From Sphaerolaimus hirsutus (taxonomy: Eukaryota > Nematoda > Chromadorea > Monhysterida > Sphaerolaimidae), in the NCBI GenBank assembly GCA_964036195.1, contig OZ038453.1, positions 14,359,206 to 14,423,205 on the forward strand: a stretch of 64,000 nt of DNA. Direction: 5' to 3'. Positions 31,601 through 64,000 of the stretch are shown one piece after another. Numbering within the stretch: the first letter of the stretch is position 1; each line of letters starts with the position of its first letter. The position numbers and the translations under genes are program-made. The notes below the pieces were generated by a model that was given only the letters and a program-made list of their open reading frames with translations, was not told the DNA's origin and ran no database searches.

Positions 31601-34600
31601 CGAGGGGGGGGGGGTATTTCGAGGAAATACGGTAAATTATCACTTGATGGATTTGTCTATAGGAGGCATATTGGTTCAAACGTACCGTATATCCTTGAAT
31701 AAAACGTCCCCCTTGAATAACTCCCCCCCCCTGTCGGCCAGGTGAGAAAAAATAACTCCTCCCCTCGAATGACCCCCCTCTTAAATAACTCCCCTCTCTG
31801 GGTATTTGGTATGTGCACCCACAATGTGTATTTGAATGATTCAGATGCTGATGAACACAAATTTGAGCATGAATGCCTTGTTTTGGTTGTTGTTACACTG
31901 TTTAATACCTGGATTACATGGGCTGATGCAATGCATTCATACAACAAATAAAGTGAAAGTTCTGAGGAAAAAATAACTCCTCCCCTTAAATAACATCCCC
32001 CCTTGAATAAGTCCTCCCTCCAAAACCTATGATGAAATAATAACTGCCCTGGGGTCTTATTTGAGGTTATACGGTATTTACTTTTACTTGATAAATATGT
32101 ATACTCAAGTACGGAGTGAATACATATACCTTTCCTCTGAAAAAAAGTACCAGTACCCGCTTTTATGTATACTAATTGACATATACTATACTGTACTCAA
32201 GTACAGAAAACGTATTTAAGATAGTGTTTTGTATTTAGAGACTTTTTAGGCATACAATGATACAAAAAGCTTGAAAACCATATCAATGGCATACAATGAT
32301 ACAAAAAGCTTGAAAACAGGCCAAAAATAAAGGAAAATTGGTTGAATATTGGTATATAAGCACATGTATAGACAACAATTGCTGATAATAGGCAAGAAGT
32401 TTCTAAAATTGGTGATTTTGCAAGAAAATTGGACCGAAATTGCTAGAGAATACTAACTTTTACATTTTCCAGGGGGGTAATTACATTTACTCATGAGTAA
32501 AAGTAAACATATTTACTTTACGTTTTCTGTACTCGGGTCATGAGTAAAAAAAAACTTTATGTTTACATATATTTTAAAGTTCAGTACTTTAAACAACTCT
32601 GCTAGGAGGAACATAAATCTGCACACTAAATGAACATAAAAATTATGAGGGTGCACTTCTATGCACATACGCCCGGCCCGCACATAATGAAACCCGGCCC
32701 GCACAAAAGCCCGTTCCGCACATAACTGGTGCTATGTGAGTGCCGCCCCATATGCGATCCAGGCGAAAACCCATGTTGACCTTATCCCGGTCAACTGAAA
32801 AAATTTTATTCAAACATTCACCATGCTTTAACGCTGGCATCTAGCCAAAGGTGAGGCCATGTAAACTGAACCCCAAACATTTCTCTTTCTGGACATATAG
32901 TGGGCACCACTGAAATCCCCTGTGCGGCATGTAAATGGCACACACATTTTTTTTATACGATGTGGGAGTTATCACCTTATTCCAGTCATCGACTCTTATT
33001 ATGATTTTCTGTCTTTCAGGGGCACAAATCATCCCAAAAGACAGAATGAAGGCCTGGCATGGTGCCAAATGCAATTTGTAAGGCATATTTTAAGTAAAAA
33101 TAGGATTTGGATGCATTTACGCATCCCAAGTGTTCATGGTCAGTTTACAGCTGAATTCCATTGATTTTTTTTGTAAACTGAGCTGACAATATATCCTACA
33201 TATTTTCGACCCTAGGCGAGACATTTTCACACAGATATAGTCCTGCACAGGTGCATTTTGTTTGACATGGCATCAATTTATGAAAATGTCATCTAAAATG
33301 TCTTGTCACTTGACTTCTCGGTCAACTGAAAAAAATCAAGTCAAGTGACAAGACATTCCTATTTTACAGCACATTTTCAATTGAGGGAATCTTTATCATT
33401 TTGTCAGAAAAATCAAAATTTTGTAGGGGGTATTTCGAGGGGTGGGCTTATTTGAGGGGGGGGGGGTTGTTCATCAGAAAAATCGAAATTTTGTAGCTTT
33501 TCGCATAAACCGATTATGGTAGTGGCGGCCAAATACAAAGGACTAAGCATTGTTCTCTTTTATTACCACTGTTCTCTGGGCTTTGTGTTTGGCGCAGCCA
33601 GTGTCATGTGCAGGCTCATGCAGAGTTGCGAAAGTGTATTCACACTTACCCAAAATACCCGGGTAAATGGGTATTTATATTTACACTTACACTTACACTT
33701 TTATAAAATACCCGTACACTTTTTTTACACTTTCCCAGTCAAATTACCCAGGTAATAAAAGTGTAAAAAGAATTTCACAAGTGTAAAACTATTAAAAAAA
33801 ATTGAATGAGAATGGGTGTCAAAAAATAACTGCAGGTGTGCAATAGCTCACTGAAAATAGCAAAATGAATATAAATTGTGTTGAAATATGAGTGTGTTGT
33901 AAAAAATTCTCTTGCATATTATTGTATTTAGCTGTAACATTTTCTGGGGGTTGGGGATCAATAGATAGGTGAGACTCATGATCGATAGCAGACCAACCTA
34001 TGGGATAGATAGAAAGCTGGGGCATTTGGGGGGGGGCAACCCCCAATCCACCTACTAGACCCCTAGTGTTGAACAGTGTGTATTTGTTGTGTTATTGTGT
34101 GATGTATGTGTTTGATGAGAATAATGTGAAAAATGAATTTAAATAATCAGTAAATTCATCTAAAAGTGAAAGGAAGGGTGTCGTCCGATTCTCAACAGCA
34201 AGAGCACTCACTTAAAAAAGTTTTTACACATTTTTACACTTTCCCAGGTATTTTAAAAATACCTTACGCTTACAGTATCCATACTCAAAATTTGCAAAGT
34301 GTATTTATGCTTACACTTACACTTTCCAAAAATACCCGTATTTTAACAACTCTGGGCTCATGTACACACAGCCCTCCCCCCCCCCCACCGGCCCGGCGCG
34401 CACATATGCCTGGCGCGCACATACGACTGGCGTGCACATATGACCGGCACGCACATACGACCGGCATGCACATGGGGCAGCACGCACATAGAACCAGTTA
34501 TGTGCGGACCGGGCTTTTGTGCGGGCCGGGTTTCATTATGTTGGCCGGGCCTATGTGCGTAGGAGGCCTGCCCCAAAATTACTCACCCATATGCAATTGA

Positions 34601-40600: not shown

Positions 40601-43600
40601 GCTATAAAAAATAAAGTTCAAAAACGGGCCCCAGGAGCAGCCATATGCTGCCCCTGACACTGAGCAAGCCAAGTCTGGCCCCATGTGCTCCATTAAAGGC
40701 TTGGGATAGTGGATTGTACACTTTTCCAAACCTGTTTTTCTGGAAAAAAATTCACTTTAATCAGCAACGCCATCATTGTGTGGGGCTTCTGGGGGTTTTG
40801 AGGGGGTAGAAAAGTTGCACATACTTCGAATCTATGTACCTATGTTAAAAAAACTTTTTGGTCTCACAAGTCCAGATAAAATTGTATAAAAAATTTCAAT
40901 TTCATCAGGAACAAAAACTTGTCTGGAATTCTCATTTATATTTTCCAGCAAAAAATGTGAAAAAAGTTTTTCTGCAGCAAGGGTGGCTTGAGGGGGTGCT
41001 CCCTAGAGTATATATAGTAAATATTTGGGGGCACTCTCACACAAGGTGAACGCCTAATGTGGGATTTGTAGAATACAATTAAGTGGTTTTCTCATTAAAA
41101 TTTTCTGTCAGTCTATGTAGATGTATGTACCGTATTTCCTCGAAATACCCCCCCCTCGAAATACCCCCCCCCTCGAAATACCCCCCCTCAAAATGGACAC
41201 TATGAACTTATAAACCCCCCCTCGAAATACCCCCCCCCCAAATTCAGTGTATAGAGAACGTAAATGACAAAGGCTGCGGTTTGTCATCTGGGTAATGCAA
41301 AACACACGTTAAAAACGATGACTCTGTTATGTGAGAACAGTGATTATACATCTACACTAGGGTGTCAAAAAATTTTTTTTACGGAAAACGGAAAACGGAA
41401 AGGTAAAATTTTTTCACTTTACGGAAAACGGAAAACGGAAAGGTAAAAAAAAAATTTCTGCCGGAAAACGGAAAACGGAAAGGTAAAAAAATTTCACTCA
41501 GTGGAAAACGGAAAACGGAAAGGTAAAAAAAATTGTCGGCCGGAAAACGGAAAACGGAAAAATGAAATGCCGGAAAACGGAAAACGGAAAGCAAAATTTT
41601 CACGGAAACAGAAAAAAATAAAGTGAAATTAGCACGGTAATAGACAAATTTGCAGAAGGAAAACCTGCATGCAGGTTTGCTTGTTTGGCTTTGATTGTGG
41701 TAGCTGTACATTCTGCAACTATGGATCATGCCTGTAACTTCACTTGTAGTTCAAGCTTAACTGAACCAACAAAAAATCATTAAAAAGTAGCCATAGTGGC
41801 CATAGGAAAGGAAACACTACAACAATTTCACAGTCTAGAAGCAGTGGGAATCACTGATGACCCCTATGCAATTGATGACAACATTGCAGAGGAGATGATA
41901 ATAAATAGCATAAAATTCAACGACAACAACAAACAAAACTATATTGACTGGCTGTATAAAGAGAGTATCAGTGACCTGCCCACAGGAAAAGCAGAAGCCT
42001 TGGTGCGGTTTAAATCACTGATAAGAAGATCCAAACTTATTCAAACAACACGGGAAAGTTTTGGACGACCAATTAGAAAAGGGAATAATTGAGATCTGTG
42101 ACAACCGTTCATTACCTGCCACACCAGCCAGTAATCACGCCGGGCAAATTGACATCATGCAGAATCGTGTACGACGGGTCGGCAGGTAAGCCAAGTTTCA
42201 ACGAGTGCCTTTTTAGAGGACCAATTACCACGCCATTAGCACTGGGCCTACTCCTGAGGTTCAGGGCAGGCAATCTAGCATTAATTGTCGATATTGAAAA
42301 GGCATTTTTGCAAATAGGATTGCATGACCAAGCTAGAGACTACACAAAATTTTTCTGGCTGAAAGATGCCTCAAAACCAGTAACTGAAAATAACTTAATA
42401 GTACTTCATTTTAAACATGTACTGTTTGGACTTGTCTGCAGCCCAGCAATTTTGGGAGCAGTCATAAAATACCATTTAAATGTGACAATAAACAACATGA
42501 ATGAATATGAAGAAAATGAAGGGGAACGAAACCAGTTGGCAATGATAATAAACAACATTTATCTTGATAACTTCATCATGAGTGTCACGAATGAAGTTGA
42601 AGCTTTAGAACTATATTACAAAGTCAAAGCTTTATTTAACCAATGTTCTATGAACATGAGGGAATGGCTATCAAACTCCAGATCAGTCATGAATGAAATA
42701 GCAGAAAACAACAGGAGTCCAAAGGTGAATAAAATTGTCGCAGTAATGGGCATGAAATAAAATCACCAAACGGACATGCTGGCAATATCAACACCAAAAT
42801 TGCAAATTGACAGCATCACAACACCAACCAGACAAAACTTGAATAAATTATTGGCGTCAGCATATGACCCAATTGGGTTCACAGCACCTGTTTCACTGAC
42901 CCTGAAATCCCAGTTGTGAATGCTGCTCCAAGAGACAAAAACAACACAATGGGATGAGCCAATTGAAGATAAATACAGATTGGTAAAACAATGGAAAAAT
43001 GCCAGAAAACTGAAAATCAAGCCAGAAAATGGAAAAATGACCTGGTAAAACGGAAACGGAAAGGTAAAAATTTTTCAGCCGGAAAACGGAAAAATGGGCC
43101 GGAAAAACGGAAACGGAAAGGTAAAAAAATTTCAGCTGCCGGAAAACGGAAAACGGAAAGGTAAAATTTTTTCGGCTGCCGGAAAACGGAAAACGGAAAG
43201 GTAAAATTTTTTCGGCTGCCGGAAAACGGAAAACGGAAAGGTAAAAAATTTTCCTGCGGAAAGGCGGAAACGGAAAACGGAAACGGAAATTTGACACCCT
43301 AATCTACACACTTATACAAGTGCTTAGAGTCTTATAACTGGCGATTTTTGTTGCATTTTCGACGTCTGCGTACGTTTCAGACAACAATTTAGTACTTGGT
43401 TTTCAAAAAATTTCTGGCGAAATAATAAACCCCCCCCCCTCGAAATACCCCCCCCCTCGTTTAACCCCCCCTCAAAATTCTCACTCTGAAACAATAAACC
43501 CCCCGGGGGTATTTCGAGGAAATACGGTAGATAATATTCACCCTGTTCTAATGTATACTCATCAGGTGCCGGTTCCGCAAGTGGACAAGTTAAGAGTTAA

Positions 43601-46600
43601 AAGTTAAGAGTTGAGTAAAAAGACAAATGGCGAGTTAAGAGTAAAGTTAAAGTTTAAGAGAAAAGTTAAAGTTTAAGAGAAAAGTTAAAATTTAAGAGAA
43701 AAGTTAAAAGTTGAGTGAAAGGTTAAGAGTTGAGTTAAAGGTTAAAAGTTGAGTTAAGAGTTAAAAGTTGAGTTAAGAGTTGAGTTAAGAGTTAAGAGAC
43801 AAGTGGAAAATGAAGGTAAAAAATATAAAAATATAAAAATATGAAATTGGTATCGATACGGCTGTTCGCTGGCATGGTGCCAATGTTGTATGCACGTCAT
43901 TTGAAAATAACGTATCCAAAAAAATTATCGCTAAAAAAAGAAAAAATCGCCGAACGTTGTTTCGAAATGGCTGTGCGGGGACAAAATATGATTGAAGATC
44001 AGCGTATCCTGCTTCTGCAACGAATGACCCATTTGTCTTTTAAATCAACTTTTAACTCATCTTTTAACCTTTAACTCAACTCTTAACATTTAACTCAACT
44101 TTTGACTCAACTTTTAACCTTTAACTCAACTCTTAACTTTTAACTCAACTTTTGACTCAACTTTTAACCTTTAACTCAACTCTTAACTTTTAACTCAACT
44201 TTTGACTCAACTTTTAACCTTTAACTCAACTCTTAACTTTTAACTCAACTTTTGACTCAACTTTTAACCTTTAACTCAACTCTTAACTTTTAACTCTTAA
44301 CTTGTCTACTTGCGGAACTGGCCCCTGATATCACACTTAGTATGAAAATCTACCATAACCCATATGAATAATGAACCAAAAATTTAACATTTTTGCATCA
44401 TAATATTTCATTACAGTTTTTACTAAGGAATAAATAATTATGAAATTTATCACAAGATTTTATTTATTTTATTGTGGTTGGTTTCCTTCCTAGTTTATAC
44501 TGGAGGACTTTATGCCGTACATTTTTCCTGAGGAAACACTCCATCGGTGTGATACGTCATTTTTTTAGCCGCTGTCCAACTCGTTCGGTGTGAAAAACAA
44601 AAGCGAAAATCTGCGTAAAATATGCTGTCCGCCGAGTATAACAGTCATTGTTTTTAACGTGTGTTCTGCATTTCCCGGATCACAAAGCGCATCTTTTGTC
44701 AAAACGTTCTCTTTACATTCAATTGGGAGGAGGGGTGTTTCGAGGGGGGGTTATTTATTCATGGTGGCTATTTTGAGGGGGGTATAACGAGGAGAGACGG
44801 TATTTGCTTTCACTGCCCTACGTTGAAACCCAGAGGGCAGTGAAAATAAAAACATGCACGATAGCAGTGATTTGTGAGGCGTGTAGGGCGCATTATGGGA
44901 AGAACTCAATCTACCTGGGTCGGCGGTATAAAACTGCCAGAAACACTCTTCCGGTGACTTGTACGCGGTGCCGTTTTCATTCGGTGGTGTGATCAAAATA
45001 GATTTTGGCGTTCCCGTCACTTCCAGTGCGTCGCCGCAACCCGCTTCCACTGCGTATATTTACGATCGTTTTTTTTTGGCAAAATGGGGGCGGATTACCG
45101 TATTTGCTTGAAAAGTTCCCCTTTGAATAATCTCCCCTGTAAGATGAGTGAGGAAATAATAATCCCCCCTCGAATAATCCCCCCTTTAAAAATTTGATTA
45201 ATTAATTTTAACAAAAATGGCACGTTATTGTGTTTATAAGGCATATTTCGTGAAATGAGTTAATGGAAACATGCTTGAAAATTTTAACGAAATAATAATT
45301 CCCCTGCTTGAATAATTCCCCCCTCGAATAGTTCCCCCTCAAAAATGTCTCACGAAATAATAATCCCCCAGGGGGATTATTCAAGCAAATACGGTATATT
45401 GGTAAAGGATTTGAGGGGTACTATTACATCCAAGGACGTATCCAGGGGGGGGGGGCGGGGGGGCTGTAGCCCCCCCCCCTTCCCGGGGTGAGACCTAAAA
45501 CGTCCCGGAAAATGCCACTTTTCCTATATATTTTTCGATGTTTCTCAAAAATTTTGCGCGCAAGCGCGCAATTTCTTCCCCATGGGTTGTATTTTCAGCG
45601 GATCGGCCCCTGGCAACCAATATCCTTTGAAATGAACAGATGTTTTGTAAATTTCGCTTTATATGTATGCATATGTACTTTACATACATATAAAGTGGAC
45701 AGATTTTTTTGTAAATTTCGCTTTATATTTATGTATGCATACGTACTTTACATACATATAAAGTGGTTCCTGGCGCTGGCGCCAACGCCAATAGCGCCAT
45801 GGCATGGCGCCTTTGTATGGCGCTAGCGCCAAAACGTCTTTCAGACCCTATATAGGGAAAATATTAGGGGGGGCTGAGCCCCCCCCCCGTTCGCCGACCC
45901 CCGTAAACAAGCAGCCCCCCCCGCTCAAAAATCCTGGATACGTCCCCGATTACATCGTATCGAGGTTATCACCCCCCCCGTTTCATGTTACCCTACAGTT
46001 GAATAATTCCCCATCTCAAGCGATTTTTGCTCGCATGAAGCTATGGCTGATCATGAGTGCACATCTAGAAGTAAAAAGTAACCGCTAAAATGCTCGAATT
46101 ACGGGAAAAACTCGTCCTGGAAGTAAATACTCACCGATTTTCCTGGAAACATACATGAACCACTGCTTATCAATGTTTTGATCAGCCACACTAGTTTCCA
46201 TTACCACAGTAAGCGCATTCCCCTGTGAATAAAACATATGATTTTCCTGGTCTCCTTTAAAATAGCACGTTTTCCCGATCAATTTTCCACCAGTGACGTT
46301 TTCGTTTGCCAGTGACGATTCTGGAATAAAGCCTTCATAAATTGTGTGGGAGAATTTTGCACAGTCTGACACTGTAGTTGGTCCATCGAGGCTGGAAATA
46401 TGGGGGGGGGGGGTTGTGACTAACATTCAGAAATTACCCACAATAAATATTTCTAAAAATCACAAATATATGTGATTTATATTTATATATTTATATTTTT
46501 TCAAATTCAGAGTGATACCTATATATATATATACATGTATATATACTTGAAAAAAAAATATTTATAGTGTTATATAGAGATATGGCGCAGGCTTGCTTGG

Positions 46601-49600
46601 CATCTAACCTGCTTGGCATCTAAACCCGTTGCGGGGGTCCCACGGGGGGGGCTGCTCAGCTAGCTATCTATCCCGAGGCTACTATCCCCTGAGGGGAAGG
46701 CCTAATATGCACATCTGCCCGTTACGCACATCTGCCCGGTACGCACATGGCTGATGCTCTGTGCGTACTGGGCAGATGTGCGTAACAGGCAGATGTGCAT
46801 ACCGGGCAGATGTGCGTAACGGACAGGGGATTTTCACACACCTGTGTTTGCCGCCCACATGTTTGTTTGTTGCAGTCCCTCCCCCCAGGTTAAGGTAAAA
46901 ATATATAATAAGATGTGAAAATTTGCAATTTTGAGCAACAATATTTTTCAATCACACAAATGAAAGCAACAACAAGGTACAAGTTCAGCAAATTGTAAGC
47001 TAGAATTGTAAGCAACAGGATAGAAAACTTTTTATAGAATTTTACACTCGAGTTTTTGTAAAATTTGAATAAAATTGTTTAAAAATTCAACTTTTTGTAC
47101 AATTTTACTAAAATTTTACTAAAATTTTAATTTTAGTAAAATTGTATTTTTATTTTATTAATTTTCCATTTTATTTTATTCTTCAATTTTCCATTTTATT
47201 TTTATATCTATTTTATTTTTTACTGAGATTTTGCCAACCCTGGTTGTGAGGTATCTGACGCTCGGTTCACACATCTACCCGGTAGGCACATCTGCCTGAT
47301 ATGTACATCTGCCCGGTACGCACAGAGCATCAGCCATGTGCGTACCGGGCAGATGTGCGTACCGGGCACAACTTTGGGCATAACGGGCAAATGTGCATAA
47401 TGGGCAGACGTTCGTATTAGTGCACGCTTTCCCCTGATACCCCCACAAAATGCTCAACTATCCAGGTATCTATGTGGAGCAAACTTTGACCAATTTTTAC
47501 CAAAAATCGCTAAATTTTGCTTCATTTTGTAAATTTTGCCATTAATATTATATATATTTAAGCCCCAGCGAGCCCCCCAAAATAATTTTCAGCTGTATAT
47601 CCGTCAGTAGGAGGGATTTGCTATCTAAGCAGCCCCCGCGAGGGTCAAAACCTTCGAAACCCCTGATCTGTTGTCTACATGACAAACGGTTTGTATGCCA
47701 ACAGGCACAGACCCTTAGTGATATAGGTATTTATATTTTCACTGAGAAAATCACTCATACTACCTAGATATAGCCTGTTGACATATAAACCGTTTGGCAT
47801 GCATAAATAGCAAATCCGTCCTACGGAGGGATAGACAGCTGAAAATTATTTTGGGGGGCTCGCTGGGGCTAAAATATACATGATATGTATATCAAAATTA
47901 ACAAAATGAAGCAAAATTTAGCGATTTTTGGTAAAAATTGGTCAAAGTTTGCTCCACATAGATACCTGGATAGTTGAGCGATTTGTGAAGGTATCAGGGT
48001 ATAGTAGCCTCGGGACAGATAGCTAGCTGAGCAGCCCCCCCCCCGTGGGACCCCCGCAACGGGTCTAGATGCCAAGCAAGCCTGCGCCTATATACCTATT
48101 GCAATTCGTGACAACAGATGTACTGAATATGCGTTAGGTTTTTCTCAAGAAAATCTCTCTGCTCATATAGAGCATTATTGATTGAAAACCGTTTTTCTGA
48201 GCACATGAATAATATGAATTTCTAAAAGTTTGTCAGCTCAAACTGTTGTTCCAATGAAAAAATGCTACAGAAAGCGGAGGGTAGTTCCTACCATAATTTA
48301 ATGAAAAAAACCTTGTCATAAATTTCGTAATTCTTCAATTTTTTTGCACATATTCTTTTCTTAGTATATGCAAAGATCGAGCTGAATGCATTTTTTTCTG
48401 GCGAAAAGTCTTCCAAGTATTTACACTAACACTATCGTGCAGAATAGTTGGGAGTTTCCACCATAGAGAAGGGGTGGGGGACCACGCTGGGGGTCCACCG
48501 CACATTTTGTTGTTTCCCATTTTGTTTTACCTTGCCCAATTTCGACGCCATTCGACATCATGTACCATTTACAGTCTCAACTATTCTGCACAGGTGTGTA
48601 GCAGTGTACCAAAAAAGAAAATGAACTGACGCTATAGCCAGCCTAAATTTGTGCCCGCCGACCGTCCCATTGGGGTTGGAAGTAGCGAAGAAATTGTACA
48701 CACATCGTAGATTTTTGGTGTGTTTCAATGGAAAATGGGGGGTAGATGGGTACACATCTTCTCTTTCCAATGTGATATTGCCACCACATTCTGTGGGGAT
48801 TCAATTTGTTAGAGTTGGAATTAAAGAATATGAGCGAGCTGCACCCTCAAACTACCGTATTTTCTCGAAATACCCTTCAATTACCGAGCGTGTGCCTGTC
48901 GACATGTAAACTCGGCGGACATGTATTTCTACTCGGCGGACATGTAGAACCGGTCGACATGTAGCGGGCCCCTACATGTCCGTCGAGCAGGCTACATGTT
49001 GGCTAGAGCTACATGCCGGTTCCAGTTAACATTACCAACGCTGGTCGGCATTTTCATTTTTGGATACATTGTGTTGTTTGTATTGTTCGTGCAAAAAGTC
49101 ACAAAACTTGAAATGTAAAGAGCCCCAAAAATGTCAACAAGCATTGGTTACACTGTGAAAACAATGGGCGGGAGCGGCAAACACAAAGCGCGGGGGGCTA
49201 TTGTTATGTGTGGTTCCTATTGTTGTTTGCGCTTTGTAGTTGCCGCCTGTAGTCGCGCTAATCCCCCTGTACTATGTAAATACTTCTACTCGGCGGACAT
49301 GTAGGGCCCCGCTACATGTCGGCTGGTACTAGGGTGTCAAAAATTTTTTTTTACGGAAACCGGAAAACGGAAAGGTAAATTTTTTTCACTTTACGAAAAA
49401 CGGAAAACGGAAAGGTAAAAAAAAAATTTCTGCCGGAAAACGGAAAACGGAAAGGTAAAAAAATTTCACTCAGCGGAAAACGGAAAACGGAAAGGTAAAA
49501 AAAATTGTCGGCCGGAAAACGGAAAAATGAAATGCCGGAAAACGGAAACGGAAAGCAAAATTTTCACGGAAACGGAAAAAAATAAAGTGAAATTAGCACG

Positions 49601-52464
49601 GTAATAGACAAATTTGCAGAAGGAAAACCTGCATGCAGATTTGCCTGTTTGGCTTTGATTGTGGTAGCTGTACATTCTGCAACTATGGATCATGCCTGTA
49701 ACTTCACTTGTAGTTCAAGCTTAACTGAACCAACAAAAAATCATCAAAAAGTAGCCATAGTGGCCATAGGAAAGGAAACACTACGACAATTTCACAGTCT
49801 AGAAGCAGTGGGAATCACTGATGACCCCTATGCAATTGATGACAACATTGCAGAGGATATGATAATGAATAGCATAAAATTCAATAAAATTCATAAAATT
49901 AGAGGACCAATTACAACACCATTAGCACTGGGCCTACTCCTGAGGTTCAGGGCAGGCAATCTAGCATTAATTGCCGATATTGAAAAGGCATTTTTGCAAA
50001 TAGGATTGCATGACCAAGCTAGAGACTACACACAATTTTTCTGGCTGAAAGATGCCTCAAAACCAGTAACTGAAAATAACTTAATAGTACTTTGTTTTAA
50101 ACACATACTGTTTGGACTTGTCTGCAGCCCAGCAATTTTGGGAGCAGTCATAAAATACCATATAAATGTGACAATAAACAACATGAATGAATATGAAGAA
50201 AATGAAGGGGAACAAAACCAGTTGGCGATGATAATAAACAACATTTACGTCGATAACTTCATCATGAGTGTCACGAATGAAGTTGAAGCTTTAGAACTAT
50301 ATTACAAAGTCAAAGCTTTATTTAACCAATGTTCTATGAACATGAGGGAATGGCTGTCAAACTCCAGATCAGTCATGAAGGAAATAGCAGAAAACGACAG
50401 GAGTCCAAAGGTGAATAATCTTGTCACAGTAATGGGCATGAAATAAAATCACCAAACGAACATGCTGGCAATATCAACACCAAAATTGCAAATTGACAGC
50501 ATCACAACACCAACCAGATGAAACTTGAATAAATTATTGGTGTCAGCATATGACCCAATTGGGTTCACAGCACCTGTTTCACTGACCCTGAAATCCCAGT
50601 TGTCAATGCTGCTTCAAGAGACAAAAACAACACAATGGGATGAGCCAATTGAAGATAAATACAGATTGGAAAAACAATGGAAAAATGCCAGAAAACTGAA
50701 AATCGAGCCAGAAAATGGAAAAATGGCCTGGTAAAAAGGAAACGAAAAGGTAAAAAGTTTTCAGCCGGAAAACGGAAAAATGGGCCGAAAAAACGGAAAC
50801 GTAAAAAATTTTCAGCTGCCGGAAAACGGAAAACGGAAAGGTAAAAATTTTTCGGCTGCCGGAAAACGGAAAACGGAAAGGTAAAATTTTTTCGGCTGCC
50901 GGAAAACGGAAAACGGAAAGGTAAAAAATTTTCCTGCAGAAAGGCGGAAACGGAAAACGGAAACGGAAATTTGACACCCTAGCTGGTACTACATGTCCGC
51001 AGAGTAGAAATACATGTCGGCCGAGTCTAGATGTCGACCAGGCTTACATGTCTAGCGAGCCTATGTCGCTTGTGCATGCATTTCCTAAGTAACTGGGCAC
51101 GCTTTTTCCATCGCCAGTCTGATTCATTCCGTCAAGATTACCATATTCTGTCCAATTCAAAGGTGTTTGCAATCTTTGAACTTGTGCCGCTACTGTGAAA
51201 AGTGTCTCCCCAACTATACTCACCGAACATTTCCACCGATGCACTCAAACCGGCGGAATACATAAGCGGCCGTGTATTCCGAAAGTTCTCGGGTACCCGG
51301 TAGCGAATTTCCAACGGTGCGGGAAAAACTCGGACAACCTGCAGTGGAAAAATATTGTCATAGTTTTTGCTTTCTGCGTCGAGATTTTACAGTTTCGACG
51401 TCTTTTGAAGCATATCTATTCATTTTGTATGGAAACTATGTGCTTAATCCAGTGCACCATGGTGTTCATATTAGCTGGCGGATTCGTGGTGTTCTGCATG
51501 CTACGGTACTAGCCACTTCTAGTAACATTCCTTATAACTTGACGAACTTGGAACTGGAATCTGCCCCATAATCGCAACATAATTAGATACCCAGCTGGTG
51601 TATCCCCAATCCACCGTCAAAAGTCTGGATTATGAACTTACATCTTCCATGCTATAGCAAAAAATAGCATGCACTTTGCCACTATCCGCGTCGGCCAACT
51701 GCAAATGCGGCCAGGCGTCCGGACATCTACGGTTGAATTTTCCGACTGGAATTCGACGCGCTGTTAAGTTGGGATGCAAGTTAATCGATGGGGACTGATT
51801 CAAACGTAATGAACATCGAAAATATTCGAGGCGTCCACTTGTGAAAGTTGATAAATTTAAAATTTCGAAAATTGAGTGACCTTGAGTATTTGCTTGAATA
51901 ATTCCCCTCTTGATTAATTCTACATTGTTAGACAGTAAGGAAAAAATAATTCCCCCTTCGAATAACCCCCCCCCCCTTATGGCAAATGATTCATGAAGAA
52001 TATTTCGTGGAATGAGTTAAAGAAAAATGGCTGAAAATTCTCCCGAAATAATAATTCCTCCCCTTGAATAATTCTGCCTTGAATAGTACCCCCTCAAAAA
52101 AGAAATGCACAACATAAATATTTACTGGCTGCTGGCAAAAATATTTCAAGGTCGAATTCAATTTTCTATATCCCTGTAATTCACCAGGTTTGAATAATCC
52201 CAAAGCTAAATTTACACCAGCAGAGGTGTATACGTGAAAAAATACCAAAAATATCATACCAACCATCGTAAGGATTCAATTCAGGCAACCTCAAATCCTT
52301 CACTGTAAAGATAATATGGGCTCTGTCCAAATTGCGAGAATTCGGCGCAAAAACCCGCCAAGTACAGTTGGCAAGTTTGTGAGGGTAACCCGGTGTGACA
52401 AAGTGACGCACTTTTCGATCAAAGTTGATCCCCGTCGATGACAATTGTATGTCCCGTCCACATT
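24651..52464 (-). CDS. cubilin-like multi-CUB protein, C-terminal part
   Basis: A minus-strand gene built from repeated CUB domains, the roughly 110-residue beta-sandwich of cubilin, tolloid and related extracellular proteins. In-phase exons from 5' to 3' of the gene: 52260-52464, 51642-51837, 51224-51338, 51094-51192, 48610-48790, 46135-46391, 44915-45049, 39387-39511, 38408-38586, 36674-36795, 35903-36004, 35759-35811. The next clear exons are 34904-35063, 34587-34672, probably about 32900-33053, 28375-28442, 27503-27827, 25587-25628, 25123-25352 and the last, 24651-24851, with stop TGA at 24651-24653. At least six CUBs are visible. No EGF, protease or transmembrane segment was seen, so cubilin itself is only the nearest known architecture and an endocytic-receptor role is inference. 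The entry phase of exon 52464 shows that more exons lie upstream. The join 35759 to 34904 does not keep phase, and the region 27.8-34.5 kb is incompletely resolved. Introns hold most of the window's transposons. Confidence 0.85.
25395..25591. mobile_element. palindromic element with AAATGTCATGCAAAGTG words at an exon edge
   Basis: The arms CTGTAAATGTCAAATG and TCATGCAAAGTGTCAAAAGT recur inverted to 25565. The right tip, read on the minus strand, is CAGGTGCCAGTCC. The GT of this tip is the predicted splice donor of CUB exon 25587-25628. Related elements are at about 9730, 43563 and 55011. Confidence 0.6.
25927..27104. mobile_element. AATAAAAT-arm hAT-like element, degenerate
   Basis: Ends GGTTGGTTTTAGTAAAAT and TTTTGCCAACCCTG. 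The words TTTTATTTTATTTTATTCTG and AAATGTCATTAATAAAATAA occur in both arms. CTGAGCAT occurs at both edges. An internal stretch of about 250 bp is duplicated (about 26100-26400 and 26520-26830). Its right part resembles 46890-47245. Confidence 0.65.
27503..27827 (-). CDS. CUB-like exon (second half of a domain)
   Basis: A 325-nt exon after acceptor ATTACAG, ending at donor GTATGT. The frame reads FRIQIESLRRIDISD, HIFLVYTAFSRKVRF and ALKYAYTVTYTLQ, alternating hydrophobic strands as in CUB domains. Its exit phase (one base) fits the next exon at 25628. The matching first half was not found upstream. Confidence 0.6.
28375..28442 (-). CDS. short CUB-like exon inside a foldback element
   Basis: After an acceptor CCAG, the frame reads DGPNGTVYFFNELKLSHGG, a central CUB strand, and ends at donor GTGAGT. 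It does not keep phase with the next exon at 27827. A degenerate copy lies at about 28607-28660. Both sit between the arms of the inverted-repeat element 28017-30221, so it may be a captured or decayed exon rather than a used one. Confidence 0.4.
29165..29935. mobile_element. hAT-like element with TCGATATCG arms
   Basis: TIR TAGGGTTCAAA at both ends, exact duplication TTGGTAAC (29157-29164 and 29936-29943). The core of about 380 bp is clearly related to 11840-12250 of the copy at 10245, for example GTATCAGACAAATAACAATT. Confidence 0.92.
30259..30735. mobile_element. CCGTATTTCCTCG element, TA-flanked
   Basis: CCGTATTTCCTCGAAATACC and its inverse, with TA on both sides. G-run arms, with the core GAAACGTACGCAGACGTCGA. 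Almost identical to 31195-31632, pointing to recent movement. Confidence 0.85.
30770..31177. mobile_element. GGCGCCA-type MITE with a nested CCGTATTT-type fragment
   Basis: The left tip GGTTGGAAAAGCGCCATGGCG and right tip GCGCTTTTTACATTACTT recall the TAGTGATGTAAAA family. Between them, 31020-31135 holds AATAAACCCCCCTCGAATAA words of the CCGTATTT group. Confidence 0.5.
31195..31632. mobile_element. CCGTATTTCCTCG element, TA-flanked
   Basis: Same family and nearly the same sequence as 30259-30735, with a short internal deletion (loss of AGAATTGAATTG). TA at 31193-31194 and 31633-31634. Confidence 0.85.
31685..32074. mobile_element. CCGTATATCCTTGAATAA element, TA-flanked
   Basis: Left tip CCGTATATCCTTGAATAAAA, right tip GAGGTTATACGG, TA on both sides. 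The arms carry AATAACTCCCCC words, a subfamily distinct from the CGAAATACCCC one. Confidence 0.75.
32075..32610. mobile_element. AAACGTAAA-arm element, left end unclear
   Basis: The words GTAAACATATTTACTTTACG and ATACTCAAGTAC match the AAACGTAAA family, and the right end TTTAAACAACTCTG is the family tip. The left tip was not found. Confidence 0.4.
32900..34672 (-). CDS. probable CUB exons, partly resolved
   Basis: Exon 34587-34672 (acceptor TTTCAG, donor GTGAGT) reads MALDITFSDYSHALVNFE and then CIW, a plausible CUB C-x-W region. About 1.5 kb further along, 33053 down to about 32900 reads APERQKIIIRVDDW and KKNVCAIYM, a central CUB strand; its acceptor after CATGCCAG keeps phase with the first exon. 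The array-bearing element 33621-34354 and the repeat array 34378-34580 lie between. The lower end of the second exon is not certain. Confidence 0.45.
33621..34354. mobile_element. hAT-like element with TTTACACTTACAC arms
   Basis: TIR CAGAGTTG and inverse CAACTCTG, exact duplication GGCTCATG (33613-33620 and 34355-34362). The arms are TTACACTTACACTT and AAATACCCG words. An inserted GGGGGTTGGGG... CCTACTAGACCCCTAG segment lies at about 33940-34068. Confidence 0.87.
34378..34580. repeat. GCGCGCACATATG array, palindromic
   Basis: Seven CGGC(G/A)(C/T)GCACATA-type words followed by their inverse, with the tip GTGCGTAGGAGGCCTGCCCC. Same family as 7948-8050. CUB gene intron. Confidence 0.55.
34904..36795 (-). 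CDS. CUB domain encoded by four exons, one junction out of phase
   Basis: Exon 36674-36795 (TTSIVATDDRRRAVYRF, HSCAY), exon 35903-36004 (FNYTANKRVWVRLSAINW), exon 35759-35811 (HLYARHIYEQRKVAKS, donor GTGAGT) and exon 34904-35063 (LCGANPDPIEWISE, GVAIAAVIG, YRFDVEYQIY) cover a CUB. The first three join in phase. The third ends in phase 0, while the fourth needs two incoming bases for its CUB frame. The long inverted-repeat element at 35121-35711 lies in that intron. The first Cys of the domain looks lost. A missed exon, an assembly indel or decay would explain the mismatch. Confidence 0.7.
35121..35711. mobile_element. long-inverted-repeat element with CAGATTTAATT ends
   Basis: The tip CAGATTTAATT is matched at both ends. 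The arms run about 290 bp each with long exact blocks, such as GTAGGGTAGGGCGTACACCC, CACATGCACTGAGAGCAAGG and GAAAGTATGCCTTAAGGTC. No target duplication was recognised. It lies in the CUB intron whose flanking exons are out of phase. Confidence 0.75.
36142..36342. mobile_element. CCGTATTTTCTCGAATAG element, TA-flanked
   Basis: CCGTATTTTCTCGAATAG and its inverse with TA on each side, and internal GGAACTATTCGAG words. A lone right half of the CGAAATACCCC subfamily follows at about 36360-36494. Confidence 0.75.
36941..37330. mobile_element. TTTCGAA-arm element, truncated
   Basis: The left tip TAACGATGGCAAACC matches the intact element at 54225. The arms are TTTTCGAATTTTT words. The right tip is missing; the half foldback element 37360-37944 begins there. 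Confidence 0.6.
37360..37944. mobile_element. right half of the TAAACACCTTCCCGG foldback
   Basis: Collinear with about 28880-29155 plus 29944-30221, without the nested TCGATATCG element, and ending CCGGAAGGTGTTTA. It gives an empty-site view for the insertion at 29165. Confidence 0.7.
37945..38370. mobile_element. AATAGAACGGCAC-type element
   Basis: The words AATAGAACGGCAC and CCAATAGAACGGC occur at both ends in opposite orientation. The right end GAAGAAATACGG is followed by TA, linking it to the CCGTATTT group. The left tip is eroded. Confidence 0.5.
38408..45049 (-). CDS. CUB domain encoded by three exons
   Basis: Exon 44915-45049 holds CGDALEV, SILITPPNENG and ECFWQFY. Exon 39387-39511 holds GGRVLLNFTRVDLWDG and CVDFVQ. 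Exon 38408-38586 holds VFDGHTRFHPKLGSSICG, GTISVLFHSEIGSN and GVMLQYSAIQR. Joined, they give a textbook CUB with all four Cys positions and consistent phases. The 5.4-kb intron 39512-44914 contains the element that carries the BEL/Pao fragment. Confidence 0.88.
38644..38833. mobile_element. TACTCGGCGGAC-family MITE
   Basis: Left tip TACTCGCGGACATCACAC, right tip GGTCCGACGAGCA, and the family core GTTTTTCATCGTAATATTCC. Confidence 0.7.
38906..39366. mobile_element. CCGTAAATTC element with GTCGCATTATTGG words
   Basis: Tips CCGTAAATTC and GATTTACGG with TA outside. The right arm repeats GGGGGTCGCATTATTGGA five times. It ends 20 bp before CUB exon 39387-39511. Confidence 0.7.
39540..39887. mobile_element. 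CCGTATTTCCTCG element, TA-flanked
   Basis: CCGTATTTCCTCGAAACCCC at the left, GAGACATACGG at the right, TA on both sides. It starts 29 bp upstream (in gene orientation) of the CUB exon at 39387-39511. Confidence 0.7.
40152..40325. mobile_element. GGCGCCA-type palindromic MITE
   Basis: GCCGCCATGGCGCC at the left and GGAAATGGCGCCAGGATGCGGG at the right, with an internal run of GGCGCC and TGGCGCC words. Tips are degenerate. Confidence 0.45.
40330..41110. other. CUB gene intron without recognised feature
   Basis: AT-rich sequence with no TIR, array or family-like open frame. It lies between the GGCGCC element and the CCGTATTT element. Confidence 0.4.
41358..43301. mobile_element. hAT-like element with CGGAAAACGG arms carrying a BEL/Pao fragment (copy 1)
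   Basis: TIR TAGGGTGTCAAA and exact inverse, flanked by the exact duplication ATCTACAC (41350-41357 and 43302-43309). Each arm has about six CGGAAAACGGAAAGGTAAAA units, inverted between arms. The cargo, about 41640-43050, is not a transposase but part of a BEL/Pao pol gene. The TIR fits the hAT pattern YARNG. 1944 bp. Confidence 0.92.
41796..43048 (+). pseudogene. captured BEL/Pao reverse-transcriptase fragment (copy 1)
   Basis: Two plus-strand frames (41796-42092 and 42089-42760) and a third after a stop (to about 43048) cover the protease-RT linker and RT of a BEL/Pao retrotransposon. Seen motifs: AIGKETLQQFHSLEAVGI, SCRIVYDGSAG, LRFRAGNLALIVDIEKAF, FGLVCSPAILGAVIKYHL, the YLDN box and MREWLSNS. 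After the stop, YDPIGFTAPVSLTLK and WDEPIEDKY belong to the region following the RT. A frame change near 42070 and stops break it. No LTRs, gag, RNase H or integrase are present. Confidence 0.88.
43556..44638. mobile_element. TACTCGGCGGAC-family MITE interrupted by a TTAAGAGTTAAAAG foldback
   Basis: Outer tips TACTC and GTCCGCCGAGTA with TA outside. The inner element at about 43563-44328 has tips CAGGTGCCGGTTCCGCAAGT and inverse ACTTGCGGAACTGGCCCCTG, a left arm of GTTAAGAGTTAAAAG words and a right arm of TTAACTCAACTC words. Confidence 0.7.
44101..44290 (+). repeat. 50-bp tandem repeat
   Basis: A unit of 50 bp starting TTTGACTCAACTTTTAACC repeats almost perfectly three to four times inside the right arm of the foldback at 43563-44328. 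Confidence 0.75.
45098..45394. mobile_element. CCGTATTTGCTTGAATAATCCCC element, TA-flanked
   Basis: CCGTATTTGCTTGAA and inverse TTCAAGCAAATACGG, TA on each side. The arms carry TCGAATAATCCCCCC words. Same subfamily as 63501-63877. It lies 49 bp from the CUB exon at 44915-45049. Confidence 0.8.
45431..45948. mobile_element. hAT MITE with GGACGTATCCAGG ends
   Basis: Ends CAAGGACGTATCCAGG and CCTGGATACGTCCCCG, exact duplication ATTACATC (45423-45430 and 45949-45956). The core has a direct repeat, AATTTCGCTTTATAT and ACTTTACATACATATAAAGT, and GGCGCTGGCGCCA words. Confidence 0.88.
46135..48790 (-). CDS. CUB domain encoded by two exons
   Basis: Exon 48610-48790 begins ECGGNITLEREDVYPSTP and continues to NLRCVYNFF and HKFRLAIASVHF, a clean CUB start. 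Exon 46135-46391 supplies the second half (DCAKFSHTIYEGF, GKTCYFKG, ALTVVMETSVAD, WFMYVSRKI). The intron between them (46392-48609) is largely the foldback element at 46584-48093. Confidence 0.82.
46584..48093. mobile_element. 1.5-kb foldback with GGCGCAGGCTTGCTTGG ends
   Basis: The left arm GGCGCAGGCTTGCTTGGCATC, GTTGCGGGGGTCCCACGG and GCTCAGCTAGCTATCT is inverted at 48004-48093. Two inner hairpins follow: ATGTGCGTACCGGGCAGATG arrays (46690-46850, 47260-47425) and a pair of arms at about 47455-47660 and 47800-47985. TAT occurs on both flanks. It fills most of a CUB intron. Confidence 0.75.
49330..50981. mobile_element. hAT-like element with CGGAAAACGG arms carrying a BEL/Pao fragment (copy 2)
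   Basis: TIR TAGGGTGTCAAA and inverse, flanked by the exact duplication GCTGGTAC (49322-49329 and 50982-50989). Arms and cargo are collinear with copy 1 at high identity, but about 290 bp (41921-42214 of copy 1) are replaced by a 16-bp filler. 1652 bp. Confidence 0.92.
49649..50734 (+). pseudogene. captured BEL/Pao reverse-transcriptase fragment (copy 2, internally deleted)
   Basis: One open frame of 265 codons (49649-50446), then after a stop a second frame (50525-50734) with YDPIGFTAPVSLTLK. It shares AIGKETLRQFHSLEAVGI, LRFRAGNLALIADIEKAF, the YVDN box and MREWLSNS with copy 1. A change relative to copy 1 (CAA for TAA at about 49744) leaves the N-terminal part open. The deletion removes RT segments around SCRIVYDGSAG, so enzymatic activity is not expected. 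Confidence 0.86.
51094..52464 (-). CDS. CUB domain encoded by four exons (5'-most resolved in the window)
   Basis: Exon 52260-52464 carries the canonical CUB start: CGRDIQL, TPGYPHKLANCTWRVFAP, then a hydrophobic strand IIFTVKDLRL. Exon 51642-51837 follows in phase (GRLEYFRCSLRL, RRCPDAWPHLQLAD), then 51224-51338 (PLEIRYRVPENF, GLSASVEMF, the last CUB strand) and 51094-51192 (LNWTEYGNLDG), an inter-domain linker. The donor of 51642-51837 is a strong GAT|GTAAGT. All four junctions keep phase, and the exit phase fits the exon at 48790. Confidence 0.82.
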
Positions 52465-53018: not shown

Positions 53019-53796
53019 CCGTAAATCCTCGAATAAGTCCCCTCTTGTGAGCGTGAGGAAAAATAACTCCTCCTCCAATAACTCCCCCCACTGTGATGGG
53101 TAGGAAACATTTCACATTTACAAAAACATTTTACCATATTTCCTCGAATTACCCCCCGGGGGGTTTATTTTTCAGAGTGGAAATTTTGAGGAGGGGGGTT
53201 TATTATTTCGCGAGAAATTTTTTGAAATCCCAGTAGTAAATCGTTGTTTGTAACGTACACAGACGTCGAAAAATGCGAAAAAACCGCCATTTATAATACT
53301 ATATAGACTTATATAACTACGAAGACGGTATAAACCCTGTTCTAACATAACACAGTCATTGTTTTTCACGTGTGTTCTGCGTTTCCAGGAGCTTTTGTCA
53401 TCTACGTTCTCTATACACTGAAATTGGGGGCGGGGGTATTTCAAGGGGGGGGGTTATAAATTCAAAGTGTCCATTTTGAGGGAGTATTTCGAGAGGGGGG
53501 TATTTCGAGGGGGGTATTTCGAGGTAATACAGTATGTATTTTTTATGTAAATATATGTATTATTATTTTGCAGCTAGAGTTCACTCACATTGATTTCACT
53601 GCATGAATTATGAACAAATGATTTATGTTGCCAAATTTACCACATTTGTGCAGTAAATTAATTACACATTTTACTAAAAATTCTGATGAAAATATAACCC
53701 CCCCCCCCTCGAATAACTCCCACCCTCGAATAAGTCCCTCCTCAAAAAATACTGATGGAAAAATAACTCCCCGGGGACTTAATCGAGGATTTACGG
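53019..53796. mobile_element. nested CCGTAAATCCTCGAATAAG and CCGTATTT-type elements
   Basis: Outer tips CCGTAAATCCTCGAATAAG and GAGGATTTACGG, with TA at the right. An inner CGAAATACCCC-type element spans about 53134-53532 (left tip CCATATTTCCTCG). A further AATAATACC-type left end starts at about 53804 and closes near 53909 (TTCACGGTA). Confidence 0.65.
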
Positions 53797-58216: not shown

Positions 58217-58332
58217 ATGTAGAAGAGTCTATCAACTTTTTTAAGTACATATGTAGATGGTATAAGCCCTGTCCTTTTTGAAAGTAAATACGTGAGTAAA
58301 GAAAACGTGTTTTAAGGGGACATTTAAACGTA

Positions 58333-58749
58333 CCGTATTACCTTGAATTATCCCCCCCTTGAATTAACCCCCCCTCGAATTAACCCCCCTCAAAATGGGC
58401 TGGGGAAATAATAAACCCCCCCTCGAAATACCCCCCCCCTTCGGAATGATGTACGTCATGTACATAATAAATACGTCATGTATGCAATGTACATGATGTA
58501 TATTGCTGTTAATTTGTATTGCAGCTACACATAGACTAGTTTGTGTAGCTAATCTACGTTTTTATGTCCAAATATACCCTGTTTGGACACATTTATTACC
58601 TGTTTTGGGTATGCAAATGCCTACTATTTACTACGATCCTTACGAAAATTTCTGACGAAATAATAAACCCCCCCTCGAATTACCCCCCCCCCCTCAAATT
58701 TTGCTGGCGAAATAATAAACCCCCATGGGGGTATTTCGAGGTAATACGG
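58333..58749. mobile_element. CCGTATTACCTTGAATTATCCCC element, TA-flanked
   Basis: CCGTATTACCTTGAATTA and inverse GAGGTAATACGG, TA on both sides. The arms carry CGAATTAACCCCCC words. Confidence 0.78.
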
Positions 58750-59885
58750 TATTCATTTGAAGAGAAAATGTAATTTTGATAGACGGAAAGTGACAAACAT
58801 GGGGACATTTTTGTGAGAAATACTTATCAGTTGAAAAAACACATCTTTGATGTATTTATCCCAGCCTGGGATTCCCAGGGTTACAATTGAAAAAAGCTTA
58901 CTTTAGCGTTTGCTGTGATAAAAATACTCACTTACATTTTCCTAGAAAAACAGTATTTTACCCACCTTTTACTGAGTGTAAAAGCAAAAAAAAATTACGT
59001 TTTCTGTATTCAGTCATTAGTAAAAAAAATACTTAAAATCTACTTTAAAATGAAAATTCAGTACTTTTAACAACTCTGGTCAGATAGCCTAAACTTGGTG
59101 GCTGTGTAGTGGCAAAAATCACATTCACACTCCATTCATGTGTTTACTCCCCCTTGAACTCTCAAATTTTTCGTGGGCAGTGATCGATTAGGTAGATGCG
59201 ATCAATTTTTGTGTAAAGATTTGTAAAAACACTCAACTCAATATGAAGGATGATCAAATACCATATTTACGATAAAAGTGAAACATTACACTGTGCATAC
59301 CCGCCATGCCTATGGTGAAAAAGGATAGAACCAGTTTAGAGACGTCTGCAAGTTTCAACTTTTTATGGAAAGACATCACTAATCCTAGTGATGGCAAGAA
59401 GGATCAAAGTACGTTCAGTGTTTTCGTATAAATATATTTACACAGCACACTCACAATTGTGTGTACTGTGGACGTGGTGTTGAGAGGTGTTTTCCCGATT
59501 TTGTGCATGATTTACTTTTGCAATCGCGGAGACGCAGAAAATTCTAGTTTTTTTCTCTCAAAGAATCAAACAAAATTTGAACAAAACGCCAAAAAAAAGT
59601 TACATATGATTATTGGCTGAATCACTGGATTCAAGTGTCCATTACAAATATTTTTTTGACATTTTCTTAAAATTGAATCAATTTTTTAAATGTTAGTTGA
59701 CACCCACTGACACTTTTTAAAAGTGAACTGGCGCTGTGCAGTGGCCAATTTTTCCAGTATTTTCACATCACTACACTGTCTGTCTGGACTGGATGTAAGG
59801 TATCAGCATAGGTAACGTGAAAGAACATTTGAACGTTGTTTACACCCAATACAGTGTATAGCGATAGAGTGCGAAATGAGTACTA
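58750..59885. other. non-coding stretch, one decayed AAACGTAAA-type end
   Basis: The words TACGTTTTCTGTATTCAGTCAT and TTTTAACAACTCTG near 59000-59080 are the right arm and tip of the AAACGTAAA family. The remainder shows no feature I recognise. Confidence 0.4.
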
Positions 59886-62869: not shown

Positions 62870-63500
62870 CTTCATCACAATGTATGGCAGCAACAGTAGA
62901 TAAATGGCATGTACACAGTGTAAGATAAATTCAAAGAATTGATAAAATTCAAAATCTAGTTTTGGAAAAATTCTAAATTTGGACAAGTAATTATAAAAAT
63001 ATGCTTGAGTATTTGGCATGTTGACTGATAAACAGTTAACATTTCTCCAGATGTTTTGCCATCAATAGTTGGGGCTGGAAGGTATTCAATTTCACTTGCA
63101 ATTGCACAGGCATAAAGATGCCATAGTCCTAACTCTCAGTATTCGATGTCAACACATCACTTTTAAGGAACAATGGAACCCTAAAAATTGTTGGGTGAAT
63201 GTTTATTGAGTACCAACCAAGCGATTCACCAATAAGCATATGATAATTTGTTGTTTTCACTAAATTGCATAATTCAGAAACCATATGTCAACAGTGACAT
63301 CAGTAGTGTAAGAACGCGATGGATGTTCAATGAACTCTGTTTACCATTTTAGCCTTAAACTCTCAGAAACCATACAGCGAAAATCAAATAAAGGTAAATT
63401 TCTGCAGGTCATTTAGTTGCTGTCCTAACAAATGTAACAGAAACATAAATGTCAATTTATTCACATCTATGTGGAAAAGTTTGTGGTATACGGACAATTA

Positions 63501-63877
63501 CCGTATTTGCTTGAATAATCCCCCCGGGGAATTATTATTTCGTCAGACATTTTTGAGGGGGGAACTATTCGAGGGGGAATTATTCCAGGGGGGGGGGAAT
63601 TATTATTTCGTCACAATTTTCAAGCATGTTTCTATCAACTCATTTCACGAAATATGCTTCATAAACATAATAACGTGTCATTTTTGTTAAAATTAGGTAC
63701 AACAAATTAATCAAATCTTTAAAGGGGGGATTATTCAAGGGGGAATTATTATTTCCTCACTCGTCTTACAGGGGGGGGATTATTCGAGGGGAAATTATTA
63801 TTTCCTCACTCGTCTTACAGGGGGGGTTATTCGAGGGGGGAATTATTCATGGGGGGAAACTATTCAAGCAAATACGG
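63501..63877. mobile_element. CCGTATTTGCTTGAATAATCCCC element, TA-flanked
   Basis: CCGTATTTGCTTGAA and inverse TTCAAGCAAATACGG with TA on both sides. The arms carry GGGGGAATTATT words, with an internal duplicated block TTATTATTTCCTCACTCGTC. Same subfamily as 45098-45394. Confidence 0.8.
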
Positions 63878-64000
63878 TAATTGGTATGAAGCGTGTTTGG
63901 TTGCCAAATGTGTCAGAATTACATGAATGATAACGCTTTGCATTTGCTACTGCACCATAAAAAAGTACCTCGCGCAAATACACACGAGTGACGTTTCGCT

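Follow-up and report, generated by a model that had tools for sequence, protein, structure and literature searches.

Copies 1 and 2, two elements 8 kb apart in the DNA analysed, are most probably members of a very large non-autonomous hAT family in which a fragment of BEL/Pao retrotransposon pol was captured in a single event and then spread with the element. Taken jointly, this reading of membership, single capture and spread is given a probability of about 0.87. The window, i.e. the whole stretch of 64,000 nucleotides that was analysed, corresponds to contig C4:14359206-14423205 of a 348.5-Mb genome in 762 contigs.

The window copies and their family

The sequence-only reading had described two hAT-like elements with a common TIR and the same cargo, each with its own exact 8-bp duplication, and these were recovered at exactly 41358-43301 and 49330-50981, flanked by ATCTACAC and GCTGGTAC, respectively. 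Both start with TAGGGTGTCAAA and finish with TTTGACACCCTA, the 12-bp inverted TIRs. The features are listed below in window coordinates.

41358..43301, plus strand (word arrays read on plus), copy 1, probable non-autonomous hAT with BEL/Pao cargo (TIRs, exact TSD)
41350..41357, no strand, copy 1 left TSD ATCTACAC (exact repeat, empty-site comparison)
43302..43309, no strand, copy 1 right TSD ATCTACAC (exact repeat, empty-site comparison)
41358..41369, plus strand, copy 1 left TIR TAGGGTGTCAAA (sequence match)
43290..43301, minus strand, copy 1 right TIR, reverse complement (sequence match)
41382..41590, plus strand, copy 1 left subterminal array of 40-bp units with AAACGG (10 per terminal 200 bp)
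43047..43289, plus strand, copy 1 right subterminal array, in the same orientation as the left (AAACGG, 11 per terminal 200 bp)
41600..41791, plus strand, copy 1 native hAT sequence on the left side of the cargo (common to cargo-free L019, L011 and L026)
41792..42967, plus strand, copy 1 predicted captured BEL/Pao pol fragment, RT into the start of Peptidase_A17 (junctions, homology)
42968..43046, plus strand, copy 1 predicted native sequence right of the cargo (junction alignment)
49330..50981, plus strand, copy 2, the same element, cargo with an internal deletion (TIRs, exact TSD)
49322..49329, no strand, copy 2 left TSD GCTGGTAC (exact repeat)
50982..50989, no strand, copy 2 right TSD GCTGGTAC (exact repeat)
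49756..50653, plus strand, copy 2 predicted captured BEL/Pao pol fragment (junctions, homology)
41130..43530, no strand, CCGTATTT host element split by copy 1 (paralogues without the insert at 31190-31637 and 30257-30741)

The two copies could be aligned end to end, with two main blocks of 96.5% and 96.1% identity, the cargo of copy 2 being approximately 0.3 kb shorter inside than that of copy 1. Their flanks beyond the TSDs were different. When the flanks of copy 1 were joined in silico they aligned across the joint to the two uninterrupted paralogues in the window, in which the target octamer is present once, there as GTCTACAC; the empty site claimed for copy 1 within a CCGTATTT element was thus borne out. 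A private 26-base insertion is present nearby in one of these paralogues. Elements of the CCGTATTT type and look-alikes composed of G/C-run words are found at window positions 30257-31637, 41130-43530, 53132-53553, 58331-58751 and 63495-63879.

The word CGGAAAACGGAAA was found (at most one mismatch, whole window) 38 times in the forward and 0 times in the reverse orientation, all within the arms of copies 1 and 2. The arms are therefore direct arrays, inversion is limited to the last dozen bases, and inverted arms were ruled out. Word arrays at both ends had been correctly recognised from the letters, with the correction that the arrays are direct and that only the terminal bases are inverted.

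The 12-base TIR has 4,230 forward and 4,201 reversed matches (8,431 in total) in the 348-Mb genome, compared with 16 + 15 = 31 for the reversed TIR word used as a control, and its abundance is consequently not due to chance. Elements were sampled from one 5-Mb stretch of contig C1 in addition to the window: among the matches listed (first 100 TIR places) there were 38 facing TIR pairs less than 3 kb apart, of which 35 were retrieved. An exact 8-bp TSD flanked 27 of these C1 elements, four had one mismatch (L015b, L021, L033, L039) and four had none (L009, L027, L036, L040). Seven extra stretches at unpaired TIRs added one exact TSD (L047) and one with a single mismatch (L043). BEL cargo, at least partial, was present in 14 of the 35 C1 elements, which is the outcome, on C1, of the genome-wide count of TIR, cargo and distinct duplications proposed by the sequence-only reading. 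The suggestion that the element moved as a unit after the capture held, as 13 of these 14 have an exact TSD of their own and the fourteenth, L039, has one mismatch; all four TSD-less C1 elements are also without cargo.

The 21 pol-free C1 elements include 15 of 173-664 bp, and the eight of these that were inspected were composed mainly of word arrays. The longer ones (L011, L019, L021, L026, L027 and L033) are 0.96-2.6 kb. L026 has a third type of interior at 480-1190, approximately 700 bp with a 139-aa frame antisense to the words, for which no Pfam or PDB match was found, and cargo-free L011 contains, at 434-1874, a nested insert that has inverted ends and TA on either side.

Source, capture and decay of the pol fragment

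As judged from its homology, the cargo is an internal piece, approximately 1.18 kb, of BEL/Pao pol. The RVT_1 profile scored just below the gathering threshold in both copies (E 3e-6, 27.6 bits vs 29.6), and Peptidase_A17 (PF05380, the Pao peptidase) scored above its cut-off of 22.3 in copy 2 (50522-50731, 30.0 bits), with a match that partly extends beyond the right junction. In copy 1, where a private stop interrupts the equivalent piece, the score was 17.6 bits and thus below 22.3. The cargo RT has 45.5% and 46.2% amino acid identity over approximately 220 residues with two resident BEL elements (E 2e-68 and 2e-60, respectively), and these are therefore relatives rather than the parent. LTRs and integrase are absent from the cargo, and the 14 aligned copies (see below) end in native hAT sequence; since only a fragment is present, the element is not itself a BEL. 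The earlier description of the cargo as BEL/Pao pol without LTRs thus agrees with both the peptidase match of copy 2 and the 45-46% identity to resident BEL.

The parental BEL was not found in the 2 of 2,290 PF05380 candidates that were inspected (150 were scored) and may well be in the assembly. BEL/Pao open frames of up to approximately 2,950 codons were numerous among the 150 scored (e.g. C2:29601277 and C3:8301270), and many copies in the host consequently seem to have been active recently. BEL/Pao elements are not known from outside the animals. No Rfam match was found in the sequence searched, and a PDB search with the RT piece gave four matches (E 0.6-0.9) with no reverse transcriptase among them. 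The 20-base arm word had 0 exact matches in IMG/VR, and of 19 pattern matches to the cargo protein in GTDB 0 were confirmed.

The junctions were compared by aligning L019, L011 and L026 with all known pol copies except L016 and L039, i.e. with 14 of 16. All 14 aligned copies share the pol junctions, the left one after GTAGC and the right one before GATAAATACAG, L017 having a 9-bp gap at the left junction, and beyond the junctions there is only native hAT sequence. At the cargo site, the cargo-free elements have different sequence, 200 bp in L019 and 190 bp in L011. This cargo-free interior was matched by L053, an element with a hAT domain, at 70% identity over 292 columns extending across the left breakpoint (E 2e-34); right of the cargo site the match was weaker (E 1e-4). 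Because L053 is collinear across the left breakpoint, the 190-200 bp interior is interpreted as native and the cargo-free form as the older one.

An exact 23-mer at the right junction had 849 matches in the genome and its control 0. Of the 14 C1 elements with pol, 13 are on the list of matches, and this detection ratio suggests that the true number of junctions is a little over 900. The common junctions and the 849 matches together argue for one capture followed by massive spread; several captures of the BEL piece were rejected, as far as the 14 aligned copies show. At the left junction, 8 extra bases recur in the native right flank, which was equalled in 826 of 20,000 shuffles and might weakly indicate templated filler repair. 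The Peptidase_A17 match (residues 6-57 of the piece) crosses the right junction, and the right breakpoint could therefore lie some bases further to the right.

The same junctions could also have arisen if a whole BEL element had integrated into a cargo-free hAT and its LTRs, most of gag-pol and approximately 200 bp of native sequence had been deleted before the spread. LTR retrotransposons do enter hATs, as described for maize Ds in the available part of that report (PMC3260210), and a nested insertion of another kind is present in L011. We consider this course unlikely, as it requires deletions at both ends before the amplification, and the sequence beyond the junctions of the 14 aligned copies is only that of the hAT.

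The 16 pol copies differ by 3.7% on average and by 1.6% outside CpG-type contexts. Judged by these values, their spread appears fairly recent and the change mostly located at decaying CpG. All 14 copies that extend over this position have a stop after MGMK (2 of the 16 do not reach it), and the pol of the founder was therefore probably already broken. Over 180 compared codons, 12 of 15 copies were free of stops when gaps were ignored, and the other three had 1, 1 and 2. In this stretch, 4 of the 15 copies have indels, with a total of 4 inserted or 9-18 deleted bases, and one further copy has 10. The ratio N/S in the 15 copies was 2.21, compared with a neutral expectation of 2.68, and 2.4% of the differences made stops, compared with 3.2% expected, both from pairwise counts that are not independent.

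The many stop-free copies, the N/S slightly below neutral and the deficit of stop-making differences would agree with a pol piece that is kept by selection and yields RNA or protein for the element or the host. As both deficits are slight and come from dependent pairs, as some copies have indels and as the stop is common to the 14 covering copies, such a role is very unlikely. Selection on the RT frame was accordingly set aside in view of the shared stop and the near-neutral N/S, the small deficits remaining. The cargo is read as a probable passenger without function, with near-neutral drift and deficits that lean slightly to constraint.

Terminal structures and hAT identity

A genome profile search with PF05699 (hAT dimerisation region) gave 28 matches, of which 11 had TIR-like ends (at most 2 mismatches) and several array words in the same 3-kb locus. 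L049 and L054 scored 65.3 and 48.5 bits, respectively (cut-off 21.4). Among the ten elements with the domain and both ends, eight were flanked by an exact 8-bp TSD, L053 by one with a single mismatch and L067 by none; they measure 1.08-1.95 kb, and no open frame listed for them exceeds 137 codons. The domain is located in sister elements with the same ends and is absent from the window copies. The hAT features found are 8-bp TSDs, short TIRs and a piece of dimerisation-domain transposase, the last in the sisters. The TIR length of hATs is given as 10-25 bp in the part of PMC3942097 available. Since the hAT-domain sisters have the same ends and are collinear with the cargo-free sisters, the element is regarded as a real hAT, and the assignment made from the letters holds.

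The sequence-only reading had proposed a search for an autonomous hAT with the same TIR and for the parental BEL/Pao element, and both were sought without success. A full-length autonomous hAT was not found in the 28 PF05699 loci with 1.5-kb flanks, where an intron-split domain could escape, and three stretches measuring 4.2-6.2 kb, close to further matches of the hAT domain, had no exact TIR.

The consensus of 38 exact TSDs is GTnnnnAC, position 2 being T in 46 of 76 when both strands are counted. The target-site motif of the Ac group of hATs has T at position 2 and A at position 7, and is matched by these TSDs.

The terminal 200 bp of copy 1 contain 10 and 11 AAACGG, respectively, compared with means of 2.3 and 1.7 and maxima of 6 and 5 in 500 shuffles of the ends. 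At least three AAACGG (either strand) were present at each end of 42 of 47 elements, the 200-bp stretches overlapping in elements shorter than 400 bp; L009, L034, L037, L047 and L067 had fewer than three at an end. In the text available from PMC3260210, AAACGG is the hexamer bound by the maize Ac transposase, and the Hermes transposase likewise binds short subterminal repeats (PMC10368747, in part). The likeness to maize Ac is exact at the level of the hexamer and could, in A-rich arrays, be due to convergence. The TIRs and the AAACGG arrays may be the parts recognised for movement, the arrays as putative binding sites. Through the AAACGG arrays it could be tested directly whether plant Ac and an animal-like hAT share a subterminal signal.

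Elements lacking pol have the same arms, which are thus part of the hAT element and do not belong to the cargo. That arms and TIRs belong to a BEL/Pao element, the whole being a retrotransposon derivative, might be supposed from the location of pol between the arms, but is ruled out by the cargo-free and hAT-domain sisters, 21 of the 35 C1 elements having the same TIRs without pol and the same ends flanking hAT transposase pieces, with 8-bp TSDs that fit a hAT. One segmental duplication or gene conversion instead of two transpositions would suit window copies that are close together and ~96% identical, but is ruled out by their differing flanks and exact TSDs, and the empty site of copy 1 and the junction matches throughout the genome are also against it. 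Thus none of the three outcomes that had been named as telling against the sequence-only reading, i.e. array arms in a full-length BEL, other copies without the duplications or one segmental duplication holding both window copies, was borne out.

Proposed history and comparison with known systems

The most probable history, with the confidence stated at the outset, is that of a hAT deletion derivative which captured BEL/Pao pol once and was spread by cut-and-paste. An internal deletion would have removed the transposase gene from an autonomous hAT, its last piece persisting in the sisters. In one derivative, approximately 200 bp of native interior would have been replaced in a single event by approximately 1.18 kb of BEL/Pao pol, most simply as filler in the repair of a break inside the element. 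The founder, whose pol was presumably already interrupted by the shared stop, would then have spread by cut-and-paste, with transposase supplied in trans, and would have reached approximately 850 or more places.

Capture by hATs has been published (PMC8277862, PMC3260210), and the family is therefore less novel than was judged when a hAT-like element with BEL/Pao RT on array arms was called unfamiliar. In the available sections of Tan et al. (2021), hAT is the commonest animal Pack-TIR superfamily (208/370), multicopy cases amount to 4/370 in reference genomes in addition to the fly Ssk-FB4 family, and a frog hAT example has three copies (PMC8277862). Distinct TSDs are there taken as proof of transposition after capture, and repetitive TIR regions and template switching are invoked. 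The Pack-hATs of these sections resemble the present family in being DNA transposons with TIRs and TSDs that carry captured DNA between the TIRs; they differ in that the parent of the cargo was identified, whereas the present cargo is retrotransposon pol whose parent was not found and which has 849 junction matches (PMC8277862).

The maize Ac/Ds elements Ds2, Ds1 and Ds-l4, as far as described in the excerpted report, share with the present family the non-autonomous state, the 8-bp TSD, the short TIRs, the filler and AAACGG hexamers within the terminal 200 bp (PMC3260210). The filler of maize Ds, sometimes pieces of genes, occurs along with inserted LTR elements. Unlike these, the present family is in an animal-like genome and has arrays in one orientation, the TIR TAGGGTGTCAAA and far more copies of one filler (PMC3260210). 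Plant Pack-TYPE elements are DNA transposons that are likewise non-autonomous and shuffle sequence captured from elsewhere but, in the part of PMC8903248 available, they are described for plants and coding DNA. The cargo is similar to BEL/Pao (Belpaoviridae) in its RT, at approximately 46% amino acid identity, and in Peptidase_A17; unlike BEL/Pao, it is an internal 1.18-kb piece without LTRs or integrase, has an interrupted frame and was apparently moved by a DNA transposon. Ono et al. (2015) reported, in the portion available, that pieces of retrotransposons are taken up at breaks in mouse zygotes (PMC4516963), which is comparable in that such pieces enter at double-strand breaks; those breaks were experimental, whereas in the present case the break, if any, would have been inside a hAT and its product was spread.

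A described hAT that multiplies BEL/Pao sequence was not found in the literature searched. Capture by a hAT is, on the extracts cited, a known but rare kind of event, of which the present case is unusually large, and what is new here is the copy number and the retrotransposon cargo; the surviving cargo-free form is a further difference. This cargo-free form, the shared junctions and descendants in their hundreds make it possible to trace capture, amplification and decay in one genome. Repeat annotation can be misled by a class II element that multiplies class I sequence: hundreds of matches resembling BEL/Pao in this genome are copies of the hAT.

Another interior was observed in L021:101-2696 (G000:C1:2164494-2167089), an element of 2,596 bp with the same TIRs, a TSD with one mismatch and a Ty3/gypsy-like RT piece that is split by a nested element with the 8-bp repeat ATCACAAT. 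A 52-residue part of this piece matched RVT_1 (E 0.0011) at 19.1 bits, below the threshold of 29.6, and a 26-residue part had no match. The best PDB match was 4ol8 (reverse transcriptase/RNase H, E 0.26), which we take to be Ty3. The right junction of L021 had one exact match in the genome. As one copy, and thin evidence, L021 hints at repeated retrotransposon pick-up. It is conceivable, though improbable, that the hAT lineage repeatedly gains RT sequence, with breaks patched by cDNA of germ-line retrotransposons and the product then multiplied; if so, the DNA transposon would be an archive of retrotransposon pieces, which it multiplies.

The window also contains many further families of short-word arrays. 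Inverted arms of AAGTTAAGAGTTGA words with a short core, 80% complementary, are located at 43561-44329, and a 17-bp word, GCACATCTGCCCGGTAC, occurs in inverted and direct arrays at 46706-47407. Pieces of an RCC1-repeat gene are found at 22427-23814, the best PDB relatives of the second piece being the RCC1 domains of HERC2.
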